A stretch of DNA of 64,000 bases from Lantana camara (lineage: Eukaryota; Streptophyta; Magnoliopsida; Lamiales; Verbenaceae): NCBI GenBank assembly GCA_037501455.1, contig CM074858.1:35275001-35339000 (forward strand), written 5' to 3'. The position numbers were made by a program, and so were the translations under genes. Of the stretch, positions 4,431-58,627 are shown piece by piece. Position 1 is the stretch's first letter. The number at the start of each line of letters is the position of its first letter. The notes beneath the pieces are model-generated. The model was not told the origin of the DNA and searched no databases. It saw nothing but the letters and a program-made list of their open reading frames with translations.

Positions 4431-4892
4431 CTTAAGGATGTAGCACCCCGCACGTGAGGCACCACATCCCCCGCACTATGGCTCAACACGAGTAAAGAAA
4501 CAGTAAATCCGCACCCATATCAAACCATAGCGAATGGGAGACAAACATAAAAGCCTTCCTAAGCCAGGCGGAGCTAGACCCTGAAATGATAACCATACAA
4601 CAAAATATAATGCATAGCAAAGCCAAAGTTCAATCATAGTAACCATAAGCAGAATTTGGGCTCTTCAGGCCTCTTTTAAATCATAGCAAATCCCAGTAAA
4701 GTCAATTCAATAATAATTTAATAAATATTCAAGTTCATGGTACTATAGGATCGGATCATACAAAATTCCAATACAGATGTGAGTGCAGAGACTCTCCTAA
4801 CCTAACTTGACCAACTCAAACTCAACAAAACTCCGCCTAGCTCGAAACTCCAAAGCCAACCTGCACACTAAAGTGTTGGGGAGGGAGAGGGT

Positions 4893-5337: not shown

Positions 5338-5530
5338 GGTGGACGGGCTTGCAAGACCCGGCCACCTGACATATCAATGTGGCAATGAGGTTCACGAGGC
5401 CTCAAAGCCCGGTTAGCGTTTCCCCGTCAAGAACCTCCCTTGACGAAGTCCGTTTCGCCGTAAGTTGGAACTAGTATATGGGATCCCCGTCAGCCCTTGC
5501 TTCCTCGGTTAGCCACATATACTAAGTCCC
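5338..5530 (-). ncRNA. Predicted multi-hairpin RNA domain (element A)
   Basis: Sense order on the minus strand. HP1: GGGACTTAGTATATG (5530-5516) pairs with CATATACTAGTTCC (5480-5467) around GGGCTGACGGGGATCCC. HP2: CGTCAAG-GGAGGTT-CTTGACG at 5445-5425. HP3: GAGG-CCTCGTGAA-CCTC at 5403-5387. HP4: GGTGG and CGGG arms pair with CCCG and CCACC around TCTTGCAAG at 5366-5338. The order and loop motifs match P, X and C. Pairing was judged by eye. Confidence 0.6.
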
Positions 5531-14669: not shown

Positions 14670-14814
14670 TGTAACGCCCCAGTTTTTAGGTAGTATGGCA
14701 TGAAGTACGTGTTTACCAAATTGCACGAAATAATTAATTATACGTGTTTTATATATTTAATTTGTATTTTAATTGTATTAAATGTTAATTATTTTATTTA
14801 ATGTTGTTAATATT

Positions 14815-14871
<57 letters not shown>

Positions 14872-15199
14872 GTACGTGTGCATGAATATAATTATGCATG
14901 CATTTATATTCATAAACTAATTATGCATGCATGTATTCCTTATATATATATGCGTATACATGCATTAATATTATAATATATTATATACGTATGTAAATGT
15001 TACATTATGTGTTAATATATTTTGAATTTTATTGTTGCATTGTCCATGAGTGATATACGTGCTTCGTTTCTATTTGAATTGATACCGGAATTTCGTGCAA
15101 ATTTAATATGTTGCACTTATACGTGTCTTGTATATGAATATTTGTTCGTTTCGCATTTTCGGATTCATTTGCTTGTGTTTCGGATTTAATTTGAATTTT

Positions 15200-15290
15200 G
15201 GAATCCAAGTCGGGGGCTAACGAGCACTTAGCGCACCCTTGGTTCCGTATTTAATATCTTGAGCTCAGGAACTCGGATTTGAGTTCTGTC
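15200..15290 (+). promoter_or_regulatory. Conserved U3 block (P LTR1)
   Basis: GGAATCCAAG and CTTGGTTCC arms flank CGGGGGCTAACGAGC and TTAGCGCACC, followed by ATCTTGAGCTCAGGAACTCG. Same layout as in A and X. Confidence 0.58.
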
Positions 15291-15704
15291 AACTTCGCTG
15301 AACTCATAACGAAAATATGAGATATCAATTATGGAACATTGAGAAAACTTCATGTAATGTCACGTATGACTGCCTTACACGGTTGAGCTCTTTTGGGACT
15401 GATTTACATGTTGAATTTGTGGTGTTTTGCTGCACATTTGATTGCCTAACTTACATGAACTTGTTGGGATTAAGGGAGATCAGTTATGCCCTGTTTTCGT
15501 GATTTTTACCCTGTTTTTGGCCTGGATTTCCTGTTGTCAATCTGCTGCGCTAACTCTTGTTGTTGCCGTCTGTTTTGTGTGTTGTTGTGGAGTAGTTTCC
15601 TTGCATATTCGTGATCTTAATATATCTGAACTTGTGGGTTAGAGATGGATATGTTGCTTCTCTGTTTTTCTGCAGTGTTGCTGCGTCTTTTGCTGTTATG
15701 AACA

Positions 15705-15861
15705 GGGTCGCGCCCGCGACCCTAAAATGCATGAAATTCAGTCGCGCACGCGACTGATTTTGGGGATGCTCTCGTATTCTTGATTTTGGCAAAAAATTCA
15801 AATTTTATTAGGGTAACGGCCGCTACCATTTCATGAAGAAAATGGGTCGCGGCCGCGACCC
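15705..15861 (+). repeat. GC-rich palindrome cluster (P LTR1)
   Basis: Four 16-18-bp palindromes: GGGTCGCGCCCGCGACCC (15705-15722), CAGTCGCGCACGCGACTG (15739-15756), GGTAACGGCCGCTACC (15812-15827) and GGGTCGCGGCCGCGACCC (15844-15861). The surrounding DNA is AT-rich. LTR2 and LTR3 hold versions with CpG-to-TpG or CpA changes. Confidence 0.8.
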
Positions 15862-16541
15862 ATGCTCTTTCTGGAAAAATATCCGTTTCAGTTGCATGCA
15901 TGGCTTTTTAATTTGCTTCCTATTTCCTTCTTGCATGGCTTGGGCTGATTGTATATATACATATGTAATTGTTTGCATGAATAGGTAATGATTTCAATTT
16001 GTTTTAAATACTAAATGCATGCATGAATTGTAATTTAGTTGTTTTAGTACATGCATGCATGAATTGTAATTTGTCATCCTAAAATATGCATGCATGACTA
16101 TTCATGCACTACGTGCGTTACTGTATATATATATTAATATTAAGTGCATGTTTAATGTATATATATATTTAAATATTGTTTAATTTCTTTAAATTTTAGA
16201 ATTTAATTATTATTTTAATTTGTGTTATATAATTTTCGAATATGACTTGAATGTTTCTATTTGCCTAATTCTCTAATTGTACAAATGTTATACTACATGT
16301 TATGATCGTATTTGAAATTCGTGGAGCAATTTGATTTAAATATGAATGTAATGAACTTGAATGAACTTTAACGAATGTGAATGATCCTTGAAATGAACGT
16401 TTATATGTCTTTAAGACATTAATAGTGCACATGAACATGTTCGTTACATAACATACTATTTTATGCATTCATACCATGATCATTTCATTGCCGAGCGTCT
16501 TAATTGGGCATTTTGAGTCTCACCTCACCTCTCTTGCACAG

Positions 16542-16607
16542 ATTTTGAGTCCGTTGGAGAGAACGCCAGTCTGTGAGGCTCGTGTGTTCTCCTTGTTGCC
16601 ATTTAAG
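16542..16607 (+). other. Predicted leader exon 2 (P LTR1)
   Basis: A 66-nt segment bracketed by CTCTTGCACAG before it and AAG|GTGGGTTTC after it. The same sites and length occur at 26506-26571 and 35952-36017. Confidence 0.5.
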
Positions 16608-16800
16608 GTGGGTTTCTCTTCTATGTAGATAGATGACCCGATATATCTCCCTATGTGAAAAGTTTTAAGCCAAGGTAACACGATATATATATATTGAGTC
16701 TTTTCTCGAGTAAATGATTGCAAACGTAAAGCCCTTATTTCATGAATCCTACCTAATGTTTTGGCGAGAATGAATGAATGTTCACAATGAATGGGGCCCA

Positions 16801-16989
16801 GGGACTTGGTGTGAGTGGTGACTCGAGGAGGCAAGGGCTGACGACGATCCCTCACACTAGTCCCACCAATGAACGGCGTAACCGGACCTCGTTAGGAGTT
16901 AGCGAGGAATGGACGCTGAGTGCCATCTGGGGAGTCATGTTCCCCTTTTGTTCAATGAATGGGTGGATGGGCCTTGCAAACCCGCCACC
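16801..16989 (+). ncRNA. Predicted multi-hairpin RNA domain (P LTR1)
   Basis: HP1: GGGACTTGGTGTGAG (16801-16815) with CTCACACTAGTCCC (16851-16864), enclosing GGGCTGACGACGATCCC. HP2: CCTCGTTA-GGAGT-TAGCGAGG (16887-16907). HP3: GGGGA-GTCATG-TTCCCC (16929-16945). HP4: GGTGG and GGG arms with CCC and CCACC around CCTTGCAAA (16962-16989). Stems differ from A, X and C, but loops and order agree. Confidence 0.62.
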
Positions 16990-17296
16990 AACCCGGAGGA
17001 AGAAGGTGTAAATGTTATTGAATGGGTACGAAAGAATGATATGCATGAAAAGAAAGAATGAATGAATGTTAATGAATGGTATTGAATTACACGAGGTGTT
17101 GGTTGGAGATAATACACGCCCACTCGCCGGGCCACTAGTGACCTTGACCCAATGTTAATGAATCGTTATAATCCCTTTTGATGATTTCTATTCACCCACT
17201 TGGGAAACTCTTTAAAAACCTCACTTGGGATTATAGCTTGCATGTGAATGTTTAATTACCGTTGTATATTATATTTATGCCCTGGTTTATACCCAC

Positions 17297-17313
17297 CAGT
17301 CCCTTTTGGACTG
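17297..17313 (+). ncRNA. CAGTC/GACTG hairpin (P LTR1)
   Basis: CAGTCC-CTTTT-GGACTG, ending 18 nt before the acceptor-like TGGCTTTCAG (to 17331). Same position as in the other families. Confidence 0.55.
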
Positions 17314-17749
17314 AACCCGTTTGGCTTTCAGTTGTGTTGTTGAGGTGTCAAGGGAGCTAGGCGGGAATTCGAGTCATAGGTTTTACATTCGCTTTTACCT
17401 CTTGTATTTTTGGTCTTACACTTACATATTGAACGTTGGATCATGGGATATAAATAATAATGGAGCATACTTGTTGTTTTGAGCTTTGATGACATTTGAG
17501 GGCGTATATGACTTAAAATTTGAAATTGTGATGCTCATTGCATATCTACACGATGTATGTCCGTTTATTGCTTCCGCTTTAATGTTTTACGATGTTTTAT
17601 GGTTCAAGGGTTAGTCCCGCCTAGCATAGAGGGTGTGTATGTCCTCGTTCGCCGTGATTTGGCTCGGGTATGGATCGTCCATTTCATATTCGGGTCGGGT
17701 CTCGGTGCGGGGGATGTGACACCTTGCACTCGGGTGTTACATCCTTAAG

Positions 17750-26571: not shown

Positions 26572-27067
26572 GTGGGTTTCTCTTCTATGTAGATAGACGA
26601 CCCGATATATCTCCCTATGTGAAAAGGTTTAAGCCAAAGTAACACGATATATATATATTGAGTCTTTTCTCGAGTAAATGATTGCAAACGTAAAGCCCTT
26701 ATTTCATGAATCCTACCTAATGTTTTGGCGAGAATGAATGAATGTTCACAATGAATGGGGCCCAGGGACTTGGTGTGAGTGGTGACCCGAGGAGGCAAGG
26801 GCTGACGGCGATCCCTCACACTAGTCCTACCAATGAACGGCGTAACCGGACCTCATTGCATATCTACACGATGTATGTCCGTTTATTGCTTCCGCTTTAA
26901 TGTTTTACGATGTTTTATGGTTCAAGGGTTAGTCCCGCCTAGCATAGAGGGTGTGTATGTCCTCGTTCGCCGTGATTTGGCTCGGGTATGGATAGTCCAT
27001 TTCATATTCGGGTCGGGTCTCGGTGCGGGGGATGTGACACCTTGCACTCGGGTGTTACATCCTTAAG

Positions 27068-36208: not shown

Positions 36209-36397
36209 CAGGGACTTGGTGTGAGTGGTGACCCGAGGAGGCAAGGGCTGACGGCGATCCCTCACACTAGTCCCACCAATGAACGGCGTAACCGGACCTC
36301 GTTAGGAGTTAGTGAGGAATGGACGCTGAGTGTCATCTGGGGAGTCATGTTCCCCTTTTGGTCAATGAATGGGTGGATGGGCCTTGCAAACCCGCCA
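36209..36397 (+). ncRNA. Predicted multi-hairpin RNA domain (P LTR3)
   Basis: Copy of 16801-16989. HP2 here pairs CCTCGTTA with TTAGTGAGG, using a G-T type pair where LTR1 has a different pair. HP1, HP3 and HP4 arms are unchanged. Confidence 0.6.
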
Positions 36398-37606: not shown

Positions 37607-37790
37607 TGTTGACTTATATAATTTAGGAAAGGATTTCTTACCCTTCTTACGAGATTGTTTTTCTCCCTTGATTCAGGATCTCTGTATTATTTATGCTTCC
37701 GCCTTTGTATTCCTGTTTCATAAGAATCAATACTATCAATACAACTACAACCTTTTGTTCTATCTCTATGCTTTTCTATACTTTACAACA
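37607..37790 (+). repeat. 5' LTR of the copia element
   Basis: 184 bp, TG...CA. Differs from the 3' LTR at two nearby sites (acaactac against tcaattac, 37740-37745). A TATTATTTATGC segment near 37682 may serve as promoter or poly(A) signal. Confidence 0.95.
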
Positions 37791-37803
37791 TGGTATCAGA
37801 GCC
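37791..37803 (+). promoter_or_regulatory. Primer-binding site of the copia element
   Basis: TGGTATCAGAGCC begins directly at the LTR end, complementary to initiator tRNA-Met. Confidence 0.95.
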
Positions 37804-37851
37804 ACACGATCGTAAGGATCTGTGATTGGCGTCATCATCTACCGTTCGACA

Positions 37852-38922
37852 ATGGGCAACGAGCCAGAGGTCTCGTCGCCGGCGTTGTCTGAGGCAGCTA
37901 CTATTCTGTCCCAGCAGATTGCGCAACTTCTACAACAACAAAAACCACAGCCATCACAACCAAATTCTGATGGTCCAGTAACCATAGACATAAAATTAAA
38001 CAATAACAATTATGTCTTATGGGCAAGGATGCTCGAGATCGCGATTGGTGCGCGAGGGCGTCTCAACCACTTAACCGGCCGTCCGGCACCATCGGCGGAG
38101 ACAGATGCTGCATATCCAACCTGGAAACAAAGGGATTTGCAGGTTTTTAGTTGGATTACACAGGCCATTGAACCCAGCCTGGTAACCCAGTTCATTCATT
38201 ACCCAACTTCAAAAGATTTATGGACCGGATTATCAATGACTTACCAGTCCGGCGAGGATAGCTTACAGATCTTCGATCTAATGACCAAAGCTGACCGAAT
38301 TCGACAAGACCAGACCTCACTCGAAGAATACTTCAGTATTAGCAAAAGCATCTGGGCCGAAATCGACCGGCGGAGACCCAATCCCATGGAATCCCCAAAC
38401 GACATCACCAAATTCAACAAAATACAAGATGAACACCGCCTATTCAAGTTTCTCTCTGGCCTGAACGCGGAGTTTGATGCGATTACAAGAGATATTCTGA
38501 AAGAAGTCGATTTACCCTCAGTTGATGCCGCGTACGCCATCGTTCGCCGGGAAGCCGCCAGGAAAACCATCTTAGGCCCGTCGGCAGCCTCCAACGAGGC
38601 AAACCCATCATCGGGTATCGGAACAGGCCTGATCGTACAGGGACAAGGGACGAGAATCAGATCCGGCGCACGCAAACCCACACGCCGTGCTGACCCGCCG
38701 CGCCAGGCTCCGCCACTCTCTTCCCACAGCAAATCCGACCTCGAATGCGAGCATTACGGGAAACCGGGTCACGTGAAGGCAGGGTGTTTCGAATTAATCG
38801 GTTACCCGGAGTGGTGGGTGCCTCGCGAGAAGAAAGGAGGTGGTGATCGGAGGCAGAGTCGGGCGTCGCGGCGGCCGCCACTGGTGCCGACGCCGACGCC
38901 GATATCGGTGATACAGGAGTAG
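37852..38922 (+). pseudogene. gag: copia gag (capsid/nucleocapsid), 356 codons, damaged zinc knuckle
   Basis: Gag forms the virus-like particle that packages element RNA. The ATG at 37852 (MGNEPEV) is chosen; an upstream ATG at 37822 in the same frame gives ten unlikely extra residues. The capsid part contains LNNNNYVLWARMLEIAIGAR and QVFSWITQAIEPSL, typical of plant copia Gag. The zinc knuckle near codon 296 reads CEHYGKPGHVKAGC: the second cysteine is tyrosine, breaking the CX2CX4HX4C pattern. The frame ends at TAG 38920-38922 and pol lies in another frame. In related elements gag and pol form one ORF, so a frame-changing mutation near 38840-38920 is inferred. Confidence 0.9.
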
Positions 38923-40028
38923 TGGCGGCAGGGATAGCTCAGCGGGCGAGTCTGAGCGGCAGACGAAATGAGGGAGGCAGAAACCATTCTCAAGGTATAG
39001 GGCACAAGAGGGGGAAATCCCTTCTTTGCCCCTCTTATAAAGACATTAATTCTATTAAAATGGATATGGGAGGAATTAATGGTATAAATAACTCAGACAA
39101 TGCTAAAACCCCTTACTGGATATTTGATTGTGGTGCAATTGATACTGTTACGTATGATTCATCTGATATAATTGCACCTCAGACCCCGCAGTGAAAGAAA
39201 ATTCAAACTGCTAGTGGTGAAGTTGTGTCGGTAAAAAGGGGAGGATTGATTGAGTTTTCACCCACATTAAAACTTTCAAACTGTTTGCTTGTTCCGTCCC
39301 TGTCTCATAAACTACTCTCAATCAGTCATGTTACCCGAGAATTAAATTGCACTGTTGTGATGTATCCCTCATTCTGTGTTCTGCAGGATATCCATTCGAG
39401 GAAGATAATTGGGCGTGGCACTGAACGAGGGGGTCTTTATTACGTTGATGAAGTTGTCTCTGGGGGACGGACATTAACGGCTCAGGGTTTGGATGATAAA
39501 AAGAGTTGGCTATGGAATCGGCGTCTAGGGCACCCGTCTGATGGATATCTGAAGAAGTTGTTTCCTAATTTTTCAAGTGAACATTTATCTTGTGATACTT
39601 GTGTTTTAGCAAAAAGTCACAGACATTCTTTTCCATTAAATAATACAAGAGTTGATATCCCGTTTTCTTTAATTCACTCTGATGTTTGGGGACCAGCCCC
39701 AGTTCTTGGTGGTGGAGAATTTCAATACTTCGTGACTTTTATTGATGATTGCACCCGTATGTGCTGGATCTATTTTTTGAAGCACAAGTCTGATGTACTT
39801 GATAAATTTTCTCACTTTTACAACATGATTCGCACTCAATTTAAGGCGCAGGTTCAGATACTCCGTTCTGATAATGGAGGAGAATTCGTTAACCACAAGT
39901 TCCATGCCTTCTTCTCGGAAAATGGGCTCGTTCATCAAACCACCTGCCCGTATACACCTCAACAAAATGGAGTGGTGGAACGAAAAAACCGGTTTCTTTT
40001 GGAAATTACTCGGGCATTAATGATTTAG
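38922..40028 (+). pseudogene. pol: copia pol, N-terminal part: protease, GAG-pre-integrase, integrase
   Basis: Frame shared with the RT part. Protease would mature the polyprotein; its active site reads FDCGAIDTVT where the family has DSGA-like sequence, so serine is replaced by cysteine. A TGA at 39192-39194 interrupts it just after. GAG-pre-integrase follows (WLWNRRLGHPS, then CDTC). The zinc-binding region has asparagine in place of the first histidine. The integrase core keeps D in HSDVWGP, D in RSDNGGEF and, 36 residues on, E in NGVVERKNR, the D,D(35)E arrangement. A TAG at 40026-40028 ends this part. Integration by its own protein is unlikely. Confidence 0.92.
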
Positions 40029-42311
40029 TCTCGTGTGCCCTCCTCCTTCTGGCCAGAAGCCTTGGCCACAGCTGCTTACTTAGCCAACCGACTACCCACA
40101 AAGATACTTAAGTTTCGCACACCTATCCAGTGCTTAAGTGAACTCACTCAAGTCCCACCTGAAATGGCTCTTACACCTCGGATATTTGGGTGCTCGGTCT
40201 TTGTACATATTCCCACTGCTCACCTGTCCAAACTTGATCCGTGCGCAGAGAAATGTGTGTTTGTGGGATATGGGATTCACCAAAAGGGGTACCGATGCTT
40301 TAACCCCAAATCTCGTCGAATGTTCATCACGATGGACTGTGACTTTGTGGAAACAGAATATTATTATAGCCAGCTTAGTGGACAGGGGGAGAGTGAACAG
40401 AACAAGGATCCACTAAACTGGCTGTGTGCAACTCCGTTATCTTCTGGTAATGATCCGTTCCCTCTCAGTGCTGATATGAGTGCCACGCCCCCATCCACAT
40501 TACCTTCCTCGAGTGATATCCCTGAGATTAGTACTAAAGTTTTTGATTCTGCAAATTCTATATCTGTTATCCCTAACAGTGTAGGTGAGACGGAAACGGA
40601 TAGGTATATTCTCCCTCCTCGGAGTACCCGAGGGGTACGACCCAGACAGTATAGTCCTGAACATCAGGGGAGGTTACAGAGATATCCAGTGGCTAACCTT
40701 GTCAGGGGGAGTCTAACAAAATCCGCAAAAGCCTTCTCAGCTGCTATTTACACTGAAAGGGTCCCAAGAAATATGGAGGAAGCAATGGGGATTCCTGAGT
40801 GGAGACAGGCAATGGATGATGAAATGAATGCACTCAGGAAGAATAAAACGTGGGATAAATGCCCACGACTGCCTGGTAAGAAGTTAGTGGGATGCAGATG
40901 GGTGTATACAATCAAACGAAAAGCTGACGGATCCGTGGAACGATATAAGGCCCGCCTAGTGGCCAAATGGTACACCCAAACTTATGGGGTTGACTATGCA
41001 GAAACTTTCTCCCCGGTAGCAAAAATTGACTCGATCAGGGTCCTGTTCTCCGTTGCTGTAAATCAAAATTGGCCGCTCTATCAGTTTGATGTGAAGAATG
41101 CGTTCCTTCACGGTGACCTCGTTGAAGAAGTGTACATGGAAGCTCCTCCTGGTTTCTCACATGAGTTTGGAACCAACGAAGTGTGCAGACTTAGAAAGGC
41201 ATTGTATGGACTCAAGCAATCTCCTAGGGCGTGGTTTGGGAGATTTACCGCTGCAATGAAACGGTATGGGTACAAGCAGAGCAACTCTGACCATACCCTG
41301 TTCCTGAAACGAAGGGATGGGAAGATTACTTGTTTGATCATGTACGTGGATGATATGATCATTACCGGGGATGATACCGAGGAAATGAGAGATCTTCGGG
41401 AAAACCTGTTTGGAGAATTCGAGATGAAGGACTTAGGGAACTTGAAGTATTTTTTGGGGATTGAAGTCATGCGATCGAATCAAGGGATATATCTTTCACA
41501 GAGGAAGTATGTCCAGGACCTACTAGCAGAAGCAGGTATGCTGGATTGCAAGCCAAGTGATACACCCATGGTTAGCAATCATGGATTGAAGATTGTTGAC
41601 GGAGCTGAGTCAGCTGACCGAACGAGGTATCAACACCTCGTAGGAAAACTCATATACCTCTCACATACCAGACCTGACGTCGCGTATGTCGTGGGAGTAG
41701 TAAGTCAGTTTATGCACAACCCTCAGAAAGAGCATATGGAAGCAGCACTGTGGATATTGAGATACTTAAAGGGTTCTCCGGACACAGGGATTTTGTTCAA
41801 AAGGAATGGTCACCTACAAATAGAAGCCTACACAGATGCAGATTGGGCAGGCAGTCCACTTGACAGGAGGTCAACCTCTGGCTACTTTACGTTAGTTGGG
41901 GGAAATTTAGTTACATGGAGGAGCAAGAAACAGAAGGTGGTAGCCCTCTCTAGTGCCGAGGCAGAGTTCAGGGGTATTGCAAAAGGAGTTTCTGAAATAC
42001 TTTGGTTAAGAAAATTGATGGCTGAACTCGGGTTCCCTCCAGATAAAGCGTGTCCCCTCATCTGTGATAACAAGGCAGCCATTCAGATATCCGAAAATCC
42101 AGTACAGCATGACAGAACGAAGCATGTAGAGATTGATCGCCACTTTATCAAGGAAAAGCTAGAAAGTGGAGTCATATCTCTCCCGTTTGTGCGATCTGAA
42201 AACCAATTGGCTGACATTCTCACGAAGGCTGTTATGGGGAAAGCATTCCATGGTATCTTGAGCAAGCTAGGTGTCGGGTATCCCTCGACCTACCTTGAGG
42301 GGGAGTGTTGA
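40029..42311 (+). pseudogene. pol: copia pol, C-terminal part: reverse transcriptase and RNase H
   Basis: Continuous open frame of about 760 codons after the TAG at 40026, without a normal start codon. The RT domain begins near WDKCPRLPGKKLVGCRWVY (40851 on) and contains QFDVKNAFLHGDL, LYGLKQSPRAWF and the catalytic YVDD (41343-41354). RNase H has YTDADWAGSPLDRRSTSGY and ALSSAEAEF, then ICDNKAAIQI. KWYTQTYGVDY has tryptophan where relatives usually have glycine. The stop at 42309-42311 lies inside the 3' LTR, so the PPT is within the coding end. Catalytic residues look intact, but expression depends on passing the upstream breaks. Confidence 0.95.
42297..42305 (+). promoter_or_regulatory. Polypurine tract of the copia element
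   Basis: GAGGGGGAG directly before the 3' LTR TGTTGAC. It overlaps the last codons of pol. Confidence 0.92.
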
Positions 42312-42489
42312 CTTATATAATTTAGGAAAGGATTTCTTACCCTTCTTACGAGATTGTTTTTCTCCCTTGATTCAGGATCTCTGTATTATTTATGCTTCCG
42401 CCTTTGTATTCCTGTTTCATAAGAATCAATACTATCAATTCAATTACAACCTTTTGTTCTATCTCTATGCTTTTCTATACTTTACAACA
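42306..42489 (+). repeat. 3' LTR of the copia element
   Basis: 184 bp, second copy of 37607-37790, two substitutions by eye. Confidence 0.95.
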
Positions 42490-42494
42490 TGTAT
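42490..42494 (+). repeat. Right target-site duplication of the copia element (TGTAT)
   Basis: Right copy of the 5-bp duplication; Q LTR sequence (ACCTTTTAGC) resumes after it. Confidence 0.95.
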
Positions 42495-44921: not shown

Positions 44922-44928
44922 CCTAAGA

Positions 44929-47504
44929 TATAGCACCCCCACACGTGGAGATGCCACACCCCCGGACTACAGGTCGATCCACACACGCAATGGATAGTAC
45001 GTACATGAATCAACCTGTAGCGAATGGATGACAATAAAATAAATGACAGACTAGGCGGGACTAACTCGCAAATCAAATACCACATTGCATAGTAATTAAG
45101 CGGAACCATGCTATATTATCAATCATTTATCAAGTAGTTCATATTTTTCTTTTACATATCAATACATTATCATCTCCTAAAATACATAACAAATAATGTT
45201 AACAACAATTCCTTTGAAACACTAAATAAAATGCACCGTGCTCGACTCGAATGCAAGAACTAGACACGACTCGATTCCCGCCTAGCGTGTACCTGCAAGA
45301 ACCTAAAATGTGGAGGCGTCAGTCTGTGAAGACTGAGTGAGGGGTTTCCATAAATATTAATGCAACTAACAGGCAAGTTATAACCTCGGGTAAGGTTTTA
45401 TAACTAATGATATTATAAGTTCAAGAATAACATAGAACTCGCCCGAGATTACCACTATCAATATTAAACACTTTAATAATAAATATGCAATCATGCAATT
45501 CAATTACAATGCACACGTAACAGTTTCATGAACTCAATTCCACAAACTACTTCACTCCAAGAACTCCATCACTCCAATAAACTCCATCACTCCATTTACT
45601 CCATCACTCCAATAAGCTACATCACTCCAATAACGGGAAGGTTGCGAGCCTTCACCATTCATGGTAACACGGTAATCACGATCTAATCAAGATGCACGCA
45701 TTGCTTTGCATGATCATGATATTAATCAAGCTACACGCATTGCTTTGCTTGAGCCTGACTTGCTTGCAATCATTTAAATGATTCAATCACGGTATGCGTA
45801 TTTCTTTGCACGACCATGACTTGCTTGCCAAACACATGAAAGTTTAGAAATGATTATAGATAAATATATGTATACCTTTTAGCCAAAATTACACATAAGG
45901 GTTAAACGGGTTTTATGTAATTAGCAATTAAACCTCACCGTTACCGAGAAAATACAAGTAGGACACGGCGTACGGAGCTCGCTCCTCGTCTCGGGGATGC
46001 TATTCTGTGCAAGATAGACATTTGTACGTGAGACACGACCCGTAAGAACAATTTAAGACGCACGACTAAGTCATAATCAGTAGGTCATGCAATAACAATT
46101 AAGGAATATTAATTAGGAGCATAATCATCACTAAACCAAGTTTATAACTTATATAAGTCACATACGGGAGCCAAAGAAGTGAAAGGAATGCAATATGAGA
46201 CATTTTGGTGAAGTTTGGCAAAAATGGACAATTTTAGGAAATTAATATGTTGAGGGAAAACTGGAATATCTTTAATTCTAGAAGTGGGAATTGAGTTTTG
46301 TTTATTGTATATGAAACTAGACACATAGAAATTTCCAACGCTATATGGAACGTTTTCTAATTGAAAGCGAGGTGAAAATGGCGTAGGTCCGAAGTTGGAC
46401 AAAATGCAGTTTCTGGAGGGGTCGCGGGCGAGACCAAAAACCTTCACAAAATGGTCGCGGCCGCGACCAAGCATTTTTCATGAATTTTCATGCAATTTTT
46501 CAAAAAGTCAAAACTTGGCCAAAAATGGGTAGCGGCCGCGACTGATTTTACACGTAAAACAGGTCGCGGGCGCGACCAAGTACGCAGCAGCATCAAAACA
46601 GGGGAAAACAGGGGATTTTCATGCCAAAACTCCCCAAAACACCAACAAATGCATGATCACTCCAAAGAAAATGTTAAAGTATGTCAAATATACACTATAC
46701 TTCCCTTATTCAACCATCCAACCAAGAATTACACACTGAAGCATCCAAATTCATCATTAAAACCCCATATATCAACTTGTGCTCCAAGCTGATAAACTTC
46801 ACAATATATGCATCAAATTCAAGCTATACTCATGTATTCATATCTCCAACAACTCAAACACAATTCATTCACTCTAAATCATAACCCTAGTTCATCACTT
46901 CAATACAAGAATTCCAATATTACCCAAGTATACCTTGAAAGAAAGGATGAAATTATGGTGATGATGATCATTCTTGCTTCAAAGTATGAAATTTTCTGGA
47001 AAATAACTTGAATTTGATGAAATCCTTCTTCTTCTTCTTCTTGTGGTGTTTGATAGTGGAAATAGAAGACAAGAAAGCAAATGTTTGTACGTCTTGTATG
47101 AAATGAAATGGAAGGAAGAGATGCTTCTACGTTATTCATTTAATCAAAGAGATGATTAGCCATTAATTGCTATTAAGTCCTTAAGTTTAGTAAGTCATGC
47201 AATTAGCTTCTACATTAATGAAATGATGCCAATTAAGTCCAAAGAAATTTTATGCAATTTAGTCCTTTAATTTAAAGAAATGATCACTTAAGGCCTGATA
47301 AGCAAATAAATCATGTTCGCCAAATTATTTCACGTAACAAGTCTCAAGTTGACAAGTATTTCAATTAAATAGGTAGAAATATAATTCATATAATTGTGAT
47401 GAAATGTAAGAATTTAATAAACGAAAGAATTAAATAAATCCTAACTCTCCCAAAAATCACACGTGTCGTGCGTACCTGAACCGATGGAAAATTGGGGCGT
47501 TACA
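44929..47504 (-). repeat. 5' LTR of Q
   Basis: 2,576 bp. It gives the undisrupted copia target and holds exon-2 candidate 45939-46004, CAGTC hairpin 45320-45335 and GC palindromes 46419-46577. An exon-1 donor CAAG|GTATAC lies near 46931 on the minus strand. Confidence 0.88.
45939..46004 (-). other. Predicted leader exon 2 (Q 5' LTR)
   Basis: 66 nt, acceptor TATCTTGCACAG, donor ACG|GTGAGGTTT. One base next to the donor differs from the 3' LTR copy. Confidence 0.48.
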
Positions 47505-48744: not shown

Positions 48745-48936
48745 GATTGACGGGTTAGCAAGACCCGGCCACCTCATTCATTGACCAAAGGGGGTTCACG
48801 AGTTCCCCAAAGGCACTGAGCTCCCTTTCCTTGCTAATCTCCTATCGAGTTCCGGACTATGTGATTTTTTGTGGGACTAATGTACGGAGATCCCCGTCAG
48901 CCCGAGCTTCCCTGGACAGCCACGTACACTAGCCCC
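48745..48936 (-). ncRNA. Predicted multi-hairpin RNA domain (X 5' LTR)
   Basis: Sense HP1: GGGGCTAGTGTACG (48936-48923) with CGTACATTAGTCCC (48886-48873), fully paired if two G-U pairs are allowed, around GGGCTGACGGGGATC. HP2 is weak here. HP3: GGGGA-ACTCGTGA-ACCCC near 48808-48791. HP4: CGGGT-CTTGCT-AACCCG with partly paired outer arms (48773-48745). Confidence 0.6.
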
Positions 48937-53414: not shown

Positions 53415-53816
53415 GTGAGGTTTTCTTTCTTTTAGTTACTATGACCTACAACCCTTCATGTGTTTTAAGCCCACATGCGACTTAAGTATATATATATATA
53501 TATGTATGTATTTAGATACGTGTTTGGTATATATTTTGTGGGAATTGGCCCTTCTGTTATGGAACACTATTGAAAACACTTTTATATATGTGTAAGTTAT
53601 ATTTTCGTTCGTTTGTTTTGAAACGGGTTGGTGTGTGTGTTTTTTGAAATAGCGAGTTATAACTTTGACTGATAAGTCTGAATTTTGAAAATTATGAATT
53701 ATAAATTATGTAAGTTGGAGATAGGCCCCAGAGATTTGTTTAAAGGAGCCCCGGGAAGGTGTCGGGTTATCGGGTCACTCCCAAGTACGGTCTCCACACT
53801 TAGGATCACCCCAGAA

Positions 53817-53875
53817 CCCACTAGAAGGTTAGTGGGGGATGAAGTCCTTGGGCGTGAGCATCATGAAACTCACGA
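53817..53875 (+). ncRNA. Predicted hairpins HP2 and HP3 (family Y)
   Basis: HP2: CCCACTA-GAAGG-TTAGTGGG (53817-53836). HP3: GGGCGTGAG-CATCATGAAA-CTCACG plus CCC, keeping TCATG in the loop. The stems differ completely from C and P. Confidence 0.5.
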
Positions 53876-54245
53876 CCCTGACTGTATGAACGATGGTTAG
53901 GGGAGTATACACTCTTCCATCAACCGGAGAAATGGTAGGTGTGTTTGACTTTATTTTGTTTGAATTTTGATTTGAATATGAATGGAGTTAGGTTGGTCAG
54001 AGACTCATACTCACTGAGTTGTGTGATTATGATTACGAACTTGATTCGTGAAATAGGAGTGGACTTCTAATTATTAAAATTTGTTGATTTTGGCCTTCGG
54101 CATTAAACCCCTTTTCTATATACCTAGTATCACGTGTTAAAATGTTTCAGCTTGCAAAAATCACGCCCCGGTTCATGACTTTTCTTACTTTGAATATGCT
54201 ATGCTCTTATGTATATGTACGCGTGTGTGTGTTAGCCCCCCTCAC

Positions 54246-55658: not shown

Positions 55659-56654
55659 TGTAACGCCCCGTTTTCAATTTATGCATTATGTGATAATTTA
55701 TCTACATTTCATAATATTATATGTATTATACTTCTATGCATTTATGTGAATTATCCTTAACGTGAAATTTACATGAAATAATTGATAATATGCTTAATTG
55801 ATATTATGTGACATTATATTACTAATTGTTTCCATGAAATTATTGTTAACGTGAGAATTTATGTGAATTAATTGCCGAACATGTTTTATTTGATTAATTG
55901 ACTTTACTTGATCATTTCCTAATCATATGGACTTAATTGCATGAACCATTCTTGGACTTAAGTATTCATTTCATCCAATCACATCCTTCATTGCATGACT
56001 TATAAAGCTTAGGGACCTAAGTGTAAGAAGTACCTTGTCATCTCATTTAGTGGAAGAATCATATAAATATCTTATGTATATCATATTCCCCACATTTCAT
56101 TTGATCACATTTCGTCAAAGTTCACACACTCACACCTACTAAACACCGATCCAAACACCAAGGGAGGAGGAAGGAGGATTTCACCATATTTCAAACATTA
56201 ATTCATGGAGAGAATTGCACAAGTTTAAACATCATCATCTTCATCACCTTCATCCTTTCTTTCTTCATAAATAAGGTAGATTGAGAAGTACATGATTTCT
56301 TGATTGAAGTAGGGTTTGTTGATTTGAATGTAAATCCTTGTTTATTTATGATTAGATTTACCTTGTTTATTTATGATTAGAAGCATGAGTGGGATCATTA
56401 GACTTCAAAGCTTGCATGAATTCATGAATAATATGAGAGTTGGATAACATAAAATCATATGGGTTTGAATGATGAATTTTGGATGATCTAAGCATGTTTC
56501 CTTGGATTAAATGTTAACTTAATGATGTCTCCAAGTTATATGCATGATATATAATTGTTTTGGAGTGTTTTGGTTGAGTTTTGTAGTGGTTTTGCTCCCC
56601 TTTCTTTCCTCCACCAGCAAACCCCTGTTTTGCCCCTTTTTCCAGCTCTGGAAG

Positions 56655-56745
56655 GGTACCCGGGCAGGTACTTTTGTCCCGTAGAGCTTCTGGACAGCTC
56701 TACCCGATCGGGGAACTTTTCCCTTGAATTTTACCCGGCCGGGTA
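56655..56745 (+). repeat. GC palindrome cluster (C 5' LTR)
   Basis: GGGTACCCGGGCAGGTAC, TACCCGATCGGGGA and TACCCGGCCGGGTA. Same location as the GTCGCGGCCGCGAC set of P, Q and X but with a different core. Confidence 0.72.
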
Positions 56746-57464
56746 CTCCCTCATCCGAACTCCAAATGACCTTATTTTTGAACATTTGGAAAGATCTTGA
56801 AGTCTAGAACAACCTCCAATTGGAATCACCTCAATATCTTTTATAGTTTGTGAGATATTATCAATTCTTTTTGGTGTCGCTGCTTTACCGAGAAACTGCA
56901 TTCACCCAAATTCAAGCTTACACCATTTTCTCATTGCTTTGAACTAGAAAACGAGCCATATATGCTCGGAAATCCCTATGTGTCTAGTTTCATTTACAAT
57001 AAGCAAAACTTTATTCCAACTTCTACATCTCAAGATATTTCAATTTTCCTACAGCGTGTGGATTTCCGGAAATTGCCTATTTTTGTCTTACTTCACCAAA
57101 ACCTTCTTTATTGCATTCCTTTCACTCTCTTGGCTCCCATATGTGACTTATATGATAACTATACTTGATTAATTGATAAGTATGCTCCTACTTGACACTT
57201 CTTGGTACTTAATTGCTCAAACGTTATTGTGTGACTTCGTGCCTTATATGAATTGAACTTGAAATAATGAAATAATATGAATACATGATTTCCAATTAGT
57301 AATTTCAACTCTTAGGTGTTAATTGGTGTTTATACATGCCTAGTGTTAATGGATTGCTTGGTTTTATTTATTTACATGAGCATTGCCGTGCGTCCTACTT
57401 GGTCTCATATTGAGTCATGTCTCACGGGTTCCCACATTCCCTTTCTTGTCCAGTTTTTCTCCAG

Positions 57465-57527
57465 GGCGGAGATCATGGATCGTGTGGGCATTGTCTTGTA
57501 GCCTTATCTTGTCCCGTCGCTCGTCAG
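57465..57527 (+). other. Predicted leader exon 2 (C 5' LTR)
   Basis: 63 nt between TTTTTCTCCAG and CGTCAG|GTGAGGTTT. The copy is at 63888-63950. Confidence 0.5.
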
Positions 57528-57706
57528 GTGAGGTTTAATTCTAGATACTTAGAACCCTTACAACCCTATTTGTGTTTTCGGCCAAAAGGTATATATAATT
57601 ATAGTTTTCAAATCTTATTGATTTACAACGGATTTCTTGATTTTAACGGATTGATTGATTGATTGATTGATTGTTTTGGCGAGTAAGCATGTTCACATTG
57701 GGGCTC

Positions 57707-57891
57707 GAGGGTAGTGTATTAAGCCAATGGAGGATGCAAGGGCTGACGGGTAACTCTTGCACTATCCTCACAAACTGTGGGATCACCTCTGAATCCACCA
57801 GGAGGTTTGGTGGAGGAAGAAATCCCGTGCGTGGGAGTCATGTTCCCAACGCACACCATGATTGGATGGCGGGGCCTTGCAATCCGCCATC
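57707..57891 (+). ncRNA. Predicted multi-hairpin RNA domain (C 5' LTR)
   Basis: HP1: GAGGGTAGTG (57707-57716) with CACTATCCTC (57760-57769), around GGGCTGACGGG. HP2: CCACCA-GGAGGTT-TGGTGG (57795-57813). HP3: GTGCGTGGGA with TCCCAACGCAC around GTCATGT (57827-57854), a long stem. HP4: GATGGCGG with CCGCCATC around CCTTGCAAT (57865-57891). This is the clearest example in the window. Confidence 0.65.
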
Positions 57892-58187
57892 ACCCGGATG
57901 AAGAAGGATGGACTGAAATTGCTAATTGTGCATGGAATTATTTGTGTGATCACCTAATTCATTAATTAAATTGAATGATTGTACACTTTTGGTGAAAGGT
58001 TGGAGTTTTGGCCTCACTCGCCGGGCCACGTACTGAATTGATCGTGATTGAATTATTAAACTGATTAGTTGTAATCTCGGGCGAGTCCTACTTTTCTATT
58101 GAACTTATATTGCTTTCTTTTATAAAATCTTACCCGAGATTATAGCTTGCATGGTAATTGCGCTAATATTTATTTATACCCCTCACT

Positions 58188-58204
58188 CAGTCCGTGTTGG
58201 ACTG
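58188..58204 (+). ncRNA. CAGTC/GACTG hairpin (C 5' LTR)
   Basis: CAGTCC-GTGTT-GGACTG within CCTCACTCAG...ACCCCTC, 25 nt before TTTTGCAG. Confidence 0.57.
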
Positions 58205-58614
58205 ACCCCTCAACTTTTCAGTTTTGCAGGATCGTGCTAGGCGGGAATTCGAGTCTAGCTTATCTTTTATTCGGGTCGAGCACTTCACCTCATATTTTGG
58301 TTCATGTATTGATACTTCTTATATTTGGTATTATGCCTTAGTCATGTTGGATACGATATTGTATTGATATGTAAATGTGGGTATCTATTAGTAAATATGT
58401 AAACATGGTACCTATAAGTATTGAATGTTGTGCTTCCGCTTTTATTGCTCCGAATTGTTTATTGGTATTAATTGAGGGTACCCGCCTAGCTTTTGAGTTT
58501 TTTGTCACCCGTTCGCTATAGTTTTGGGTCATGTACGGATCAGCCGTTTCGTATGTGGACTGAGCTATAGTGCGGGGGTGTGGCATCTCGGTGTTCCGGG
58601 TGCTACATCTTAAG

Positions 58615-58627
58615 TGGTATCAGAGCC
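58615..58627 (+). promoter_or_regulatory. Primer-binding site of element C
   Basis: TGGTATCAGAGCC, 7 nt after the LTR end. Confidence 0.88.

Follow-up and report, generated by a model that had tools for sequence, protein, structure and literature searches.

A conserved chain of hairpins, the 5′ part of a folded sense RNA in non-coding LTR retrotransposons of Lantana camara, as a candidate packaging and dimerisation signal

Retroviral dimerisation initiation sites, such as SL1 of HIV-1 and the site in HIV-2 with its palindrome GGUACC, lie 3′ of the primer-binding site (PBS) and present an apical 6-nt palindrome that differs between lineages. The conserved structure of plant large retrotransposon derivatives (LARDs) concerns the internal domain. 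Among long terminal repeat (LTR) retrotransposons, Ty1 has a 5′ structured RNA domain, TIPIRT, with hairpins proposed to kiss and to start dimerisation and packaging (PMC5454406). Of BARE1 and BARE2 it is reported that a Gag-less plant element keeps conserved dimerisation and packaging signals and is packaged by its partner (PMC3735527); LARDs such as Sukkula, and the terminal-repeat retrotransposon in miniature Cassandra, are non-coding LTR elements for which a conserved RNA structure is stated (PMC7215508); and retrozymes are reported to be non-coding plant elements with a functional RNA, a hammerhead ribozyme (PMC4918200). The locus considered here lies in a 64,000-nt stretch of the Lantana camara genome (assembly GCA_037501455.1, contig CM074858.1, positions 35,275,001 to 35,339,000 of the forward strand), hereafter the window, in which diverged families of LTR elements without detected coding capacity share a chain of four hairpins, HP1 to HP4. 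This chain forms the 5′ portion of a conserved, folded RNA of the sense strand, which may act as a packaging and dimerisation signal for particles made by a coding partner, a reading based on sequence to which we give an even chance.

The likeness to the Ty1 domain is drawn from description. Both are structured LTR-retrotransposon RNAs with candidate kissing hairpins; Ty1, however, belongs to yeast, produces its own Gag and is proposed to kiss through two unlike, mutually complementary loops, whereas here there is often one self-complementary loop. The apical palindrome resembles that of the retroviral site, but the chain lies in the LTR, 5′ of the PBS. BARE1 and BARE2 are of copia type with coding parts, and are likened here by description. 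The Cassandra structure is reported to be based on 5S RNA in the LTRs, to which Rfam gave no match in the window, and no Rfam ribozyme at gathering score corresponds to the hammerhead reported for retrozymes; both the 5S and the hammerhead ideas were dropped for lack of a match at gathering score.

The order HP1-HP2-HP3-HP4 was present, in stretches read and folded on both strands, in families C, P, A and X, where the earlier note had placed it, and also in a diverged family, Z. In C (57707-57891, plus strand) HP1 spans 57707-57769 with GCAAGGGCTGACGGG in its loop, HP2 57793-57815 with the loop GGAGGTT, HP3 57827-57854 with the loop GTCATGT, and HP4 57865-57891 with the palindrome TTGCAA in its loop; a purine-rich stretch, ACCCGGATGAAGAAGG, conserved by pattern matches and alignment, follows at 57892-57907. 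The first P copy, P1 (16801-16989, plus), was recognised by its fold and by model R1, which was trained with P1 and gave it 232 bits. Fold and model R1 also identified the third P copy, P3 (36211-36399, plus), the A copy (5338-5530, minus), whose HP4 loop carries the palindrome CTTGCAAG, and the X copy (48745-48936, minus). The hairpins of P3 had been correctly recognised, but their coordinates, given as 36209-36397, required a shift of 2 nt. The X copy in the window is decayed in HP2 and HP4; across the X loci HP2 is mostly CTCGCTA/TAGCGAG and fully paired. A second P copy (26760-26857, plus) is cut after HP1. At 14670-36655 the P family is arranged as a tandem array, LTR-internal-LTR-internal-LTR, whose middle LTR has lost about 0.64 kb, HP2 to HP4 included. 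Z (53725-53936, plus), with the palindrome GTATAC in its HP4 loop, is probably the family formerly called Y and credited with recognisable HP2 and HP3; all four hairpins are there, and only the restriction to two fell away. The family called Y here (LTR from 47504 to about 44930, minus) gave no chain-model match up to E 10.

Covariation between families was assessed by an arm-swap test, in which fixed, untrimmed arms adjoining the conserved loops were re-paired in all 120 ways among the five families. Own-arm pairing ranked first for HP1, second for HP2 and first for HP3, as expected of arms that differ yet stay paired; HP4 had been included in that description, but its rank was 48 of 120, the test being uninformative there and between-family covariation not significant. 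At 360 control positions spread over these LTRs, chain positions among them, the gap averaged 0.1 (SD 3.8) kcal/mol and 13 positions ranked 2 or better against 6 expected; of the three largest gaps, two fell in HP3 and one in a stem further downstream, the U5 stem. A covariance model built without Z recovered Z (E 1.9e-9), with a score of 37.7 bits when pairs were modelled and 25.8 bits when they were not. The predicted bias towards G-U on the sense strand was also borne out. Strand-neutral scoring of hand-delimited arms in the five families gave 17 G-U, 3 A-C and 17 other mismatches among the imperfect pairs, and sense-strand G-U exceeded A-C by 143 cells to 23 in the chain set and by 446 to 20 in the U5 set. 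It is very improbable that DNA-level palindromes or shared ancestry alone mimic the structure. The families are homologous, aligned DNA can mislead, and antisense arm-swap ranks were nearly as good as sense ranks, as Watson-Crick pairs must give; the arm swaps set against control positions, the comparisons with shuffled and slid alignments, and the excess of G-U on one strand all speak against such mimicry. Sense-strand helices are kept through compensatory change, and a structured sense RNA is near certain.

Within-family tests used an alignment of 30 Z-type genome copies. These copies, like those of the U5 set below, were the best-scoring ones rather than a random sample, from one genome (1.27 Gb, 378 contigs); first-look candidate counts of 2424, 2584 and 3260 refer to unconfirmed, possibly overlapping copies, of which 40 per count were scored. 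In the Z-type alignment 96.4% of 1497 cells were paired, and slid versions reached at most 49.9%. Double-change cells numbered 12 against 6.5 in shuffles (3 of 500 as high), pairs with a double change 6 against 3.7 (33 of 500), and the covariation score was 0.111 against 0.102 (1 of 500). An extra helix, AGGAT/ATCCT, encloses HP2 in the Z copies (98.0% paired), and by reading the corresponding helix is GGGAT/ATCCC in C and CGGCGT/ACGCTG in P. Evidence for families A and P comes from their copies in the window.

Alignment of the 3′ thirds of the LTRs revealed further conserved blocks beyond the chain. In C, GCTAGGCGGG (58236-58245, plus) and CCCGCCTAGC (58481-58490, plus) are complementary at a distance of 245 nt, and a reading of A shows both sides altered. 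In a CAGTC...GACTG hairpin the closing pair alternates. Just before the PBS lie the U5 stem and an LTR-terminal hairpin, both with covariation, at 58504-58608 (plus) in C, 17642-17746 (plus) in P, 4435-4538 (minus) in A and 44926-45033 (minus) in Y, in an LTR without a match to HP1-HP4. The Y stretch at 45293-45938 (minus) was also noted as showing no HP1-HP4 chain in a family with the U5 fold. For seven copies in the window, pairing held in 97.1% of 276 cells and 26 double-change cells were counted (0 of 500 shuffles as high); pair types in this set were not above shuffles (216 of 500). A larger set of 46 copies comprised 42 genome loci together with C, P1, A and Y of the window. The 42 came from 68 loci examined, of which 15 were missed and identical sequences dropped, leaving 49 listed; L001 (identical to window C), L013, L023, L027, L036 and L046 (odd length) and L062 (misplaced) were then left out. 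Here 96.1% of 1472 cells were paired; double-change cells numbered 89 (25.6 in shuffles; 0 of 500 as high), pairs containing a double change 11 (6.7 in shuffles; 5 of 500) and pair types 49 (46 in shuffles; 32 of 500). Covariation of the U5 stem is stronger than that of the chain itself. Since conserved blocks and the U5 stem lie downstream, the chain makes up the 5′ portion of a larger folded region. Selection at the RNA level on the sense strand, as proposed in the earlier note, is supported by the cross-family covariation, the 46-copy set and the asymmetry of G-U and A-C, and more weakly within the 30 Z-type copies.

That the best-supported stems stand directly 5′ of the PBS, and that Y keeps them without a chain match, would suit a fold serving reverse transcription, in which the U5 stem and terminal hairpin place the tRNA primer and aid strand transfer, the chain forming the upstream portion of one initiation domain with them. 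We consider this unlikely, although it deserves more weight than the other alternatives, as it would explain neither HP4 loops that are variable yet self-complementary nor a chain about 1 kb 5′ of the PBS.

The HP4 stem is nearly invariant in the 30 Z-type loci (97.0% paired), and its loop is variable. In 18 of the 30 the apex is a perfect 6-nt palindrome, of five kinds: by alignment columns GTATAC occurs six times, GGTACC five times, GGATCC and TGTACA twice each and CGATCG once, and two gap-shifted loops that are palindromic by direct reading, L013 (GTATAC) and L032 (GTGTACAC), complete the number. Four others read GGGTCC, GGTATC or, in L021 and L028, further variants, three of the four being self-complementary with G-U by reading. 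Treating the loop as self-pairs gives a paired fraction of 76.2% over 84 cells, where shuffles give 53.0 (0 of 500 as high), and a covariation score of 0.431, where they give 0.138 (SD 0.042; 0 of 500). Letters that are neighbours in this loop are unable to pair in cis. In C, P and A the HP4 loop carries TTGCAA, and the HP3 loop is TCATGA in 29 of 30 Z and 28 of 30 X loci. The variable HP4 palindromes suggest a kissing-loop dimerisation site. A contact in cis between the HP1 and HP4 loops (GCAAG/CTTGC in C, P and A) was set aside, since it is not kept in X and Z. A separate observation concerns the X copies (L041-L070), where the 3′ arm of HP2 holds a complement to the 9-nt HP4 loop in 24 of the 29 loci read, with shuffle fractions of 0.005-0.045 and two at 0.085, in this one family; this offers a lead in X towards Ty1-like kissing of two unlike sites.

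Self-comparison and motif scans showed that the window holds nested LTR elements whose LTRs start with TGTAACG or similar and end with GGTGYTACA, followed by TGGTATCAGAGC. The chain is inside the LTR, as the LTR spans of C (55659-58607) and P (14670-17741) contain its coordinates. It had been assigned to an LTR leader; the LTR part of this stands, but an internal leader does not, as the chain occurs in both LTRs of C, the matching 3′ LTR copy lying at window position 64130, just past the window end, by genome match. The PBS of C, TGGTATCAGAGC at 58615-58626 (plus), presumably pairs with initiator tRNA-Met. The chain lies 0.9-1.1 kb 5′ of the PBS, group medians from chain start to PBS being 910, 1018 and 1033 nt and the longest distance 1351 nt (L051). 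A PBS-like pattern follows the chain in 17 of 68 oriented loci (2 of 8 C, 10 of 30 Z and 5 of 30 X), two of which, L013 and L051, have no LTR-end context; loci without the pattern are consistent with 3′ or solo LTRs. A purine tract like TTAAGGGGGAGAG precedes the 3′ LTRs in A, P and Y, and a variant does so in C. With long LTRs, a PBS and a purine tract, and with gag/pol coding capacity not found, the elements are of LARD type. The name Tekay/Del (Ty3/gypsy) would be a tentative label, given for a resemblance of LTR end and purine tract, no pol having been found. Four open reading frames of at least 150 aa are present in the window, all within a copia insertion. The Pfam scan covered fetched internal regions, the frames in the internal regions of the window itself being listed: no Pfam family was above cut-off in seven sense frames of at least 110 aa from four of five fetched regions, the fifth having no frame of that length, and a frame in L075 gave one zinc knuckle match below cut-off. 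The copia element (37607-42491, with 186-bp LTRs and gag-pol frames at 37822-42311) is inserted in a Y-family LTR, and the named proteins that best match its pol frame come mostly from Asteraceae, at about 60-66% identity, which taken alone would point weakly to a host in that family.

Some host role at the RNA level, with the chain as a small-RNA precursor or decoy, a translation signal or the code for a small protein, appears quite improbable. Transcribed repeats with several long hairpins commonly give rise to small RNAs, and stop-free frames cross the chain for 77 codons in P1 and P3 and 76 in C, and a frame of 72 codons takes in the greater part of it in Z; the frames lie at 16778-17008 in P1 and about 57671-57898 in C. 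However, small-RNA precursors have no need of conserved loops, and a protein is disfavoured by the P1 frame having no relatives among about 5.8 billion proteins, the A frame being partial and X having none of at least 60 codons; a coding frame conserved across families was rejected on these grounds.

The chain could also be intronic, between a conserved AG/GTGRGK donor 5′ of HP1 and a CAG/G acceptor 5′ of the U5 stem, so that spliced RNA would lose it and the hairpins would control splicing or mark unspliced RNA. Candidate donors picked by eye, AGGTGAGG or AGGTGGGT, occur in five of six LTRs, with CGGTGAGG in Y, and [CG]AG/G acceptors, likewise picked by eye, in all six, giving spans of 646-1014 nt; AGGTGAGG recurs in 8 of 8 C and 16 of 30 Z loci and AGGTGGGT in 19 of 30 X loci. 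The spans are nevertheless poorer in T than both flanks in five of six LTRs, and intermediate in Y, a composition not typical of plant introns; the CTRAY branch-like word sought is missing from P1 and X, and the P acceptor, TTGAG, is weak. We consider this improbable. Retroviral packaging signals lie behind the splice donor, and an intron would thus be compatible with packaging.

With Rfam 15, the search proposed in the earlier note found nothing in the window that reached gathering score; at a relaxed threshold three matches each appeared near C and Z, all well short of that score and all outside HP1-HP4. A scan for the chain pattern in public collections returned none in viral contigs and none in genome contigs. 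An 18-base string joining LTR end and PBS had two bacterial matches in genome contigs, which were taken as chance. Within the literature in reach, mostly judged from listings and with many subscription papers outside it, no paper was recognised as describing the HP1-HP4 fold, and PMC12218528 had no match to retrotransposon terms.

Packaging and dimerisation fit best because the RNA is folded, partly self-complementary and situated in the LTR by the PBS; moreover, with no coding capacity found, the elements would need a partner's proteins, and selection could keep cis signals only. A folded sense RNA of about 0.9-1.1 kb, occupying the 3′-most third of the LTR as far as the PBS in several diverged non-coding families, would be present in the genomic transcript, and the elements would be taken into particles built by the coding partner. 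HP3 and HP4 loops may kiss between two RNA molecules, the partner's Gag may bind the remaining hairpins together with the purine-rich stretch and the conserved loops, and the U5 stem adjoining the PBS may set up priming.

Several observations weigh against this explanation. Besides the rank of HP4 in the arm-swap test, shuffled Z-type alignments pair in 96.0% of cells, owing to very conserved columns. Eight of the 30 Z HP4 loops are GGAACA-like and non-palindromic, and in those copies a complementary partner within the chain never exceeds 4 nt. The X HP4 loop is the non-palindromic TCTTGCTAA in 26 of 29 loci read, and of the three other loops one is palindromic, which leaves 28 of 29 non-palindromic. 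The HP3 loop of C is TCATGT in 8 of 8 loci, without a 6-nt palindrome. Double-change pairs (395 of 500) and pair types (62 of 500) of the HP4 self-pairs were not above shuffles, and the relatedness of the copies inflates all self-pair counts, so that the number of palindrome kinds (five and TTGCAA) matters more. Finally, Y keeps the U5 stem with no chain match, and the chain is therefore not required in all families.

A bolder possibility, which we put forward tentatively and regard as doubtful, is a fast-evolving dimerisation code, in which one shared packaging fold carries an HP4 loop that switches palindromes by paired changes, so that subfamilies would dimerise mostly within themselves and compete for the particles of the same partner. 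Such a fold would bear on how a partner's Gag recognises non-coding LTR elements in plants. The fold would add a structured RNA without an Rfam family at gathering score in the window and, being backed by covariation and having changeable loops, is a concrete RNA to probe, to mutate and to use as a search model. It could tie non-coding families to their coding partners, and the dimerisation code, if true, may involve thousands of non-coding plant elements.
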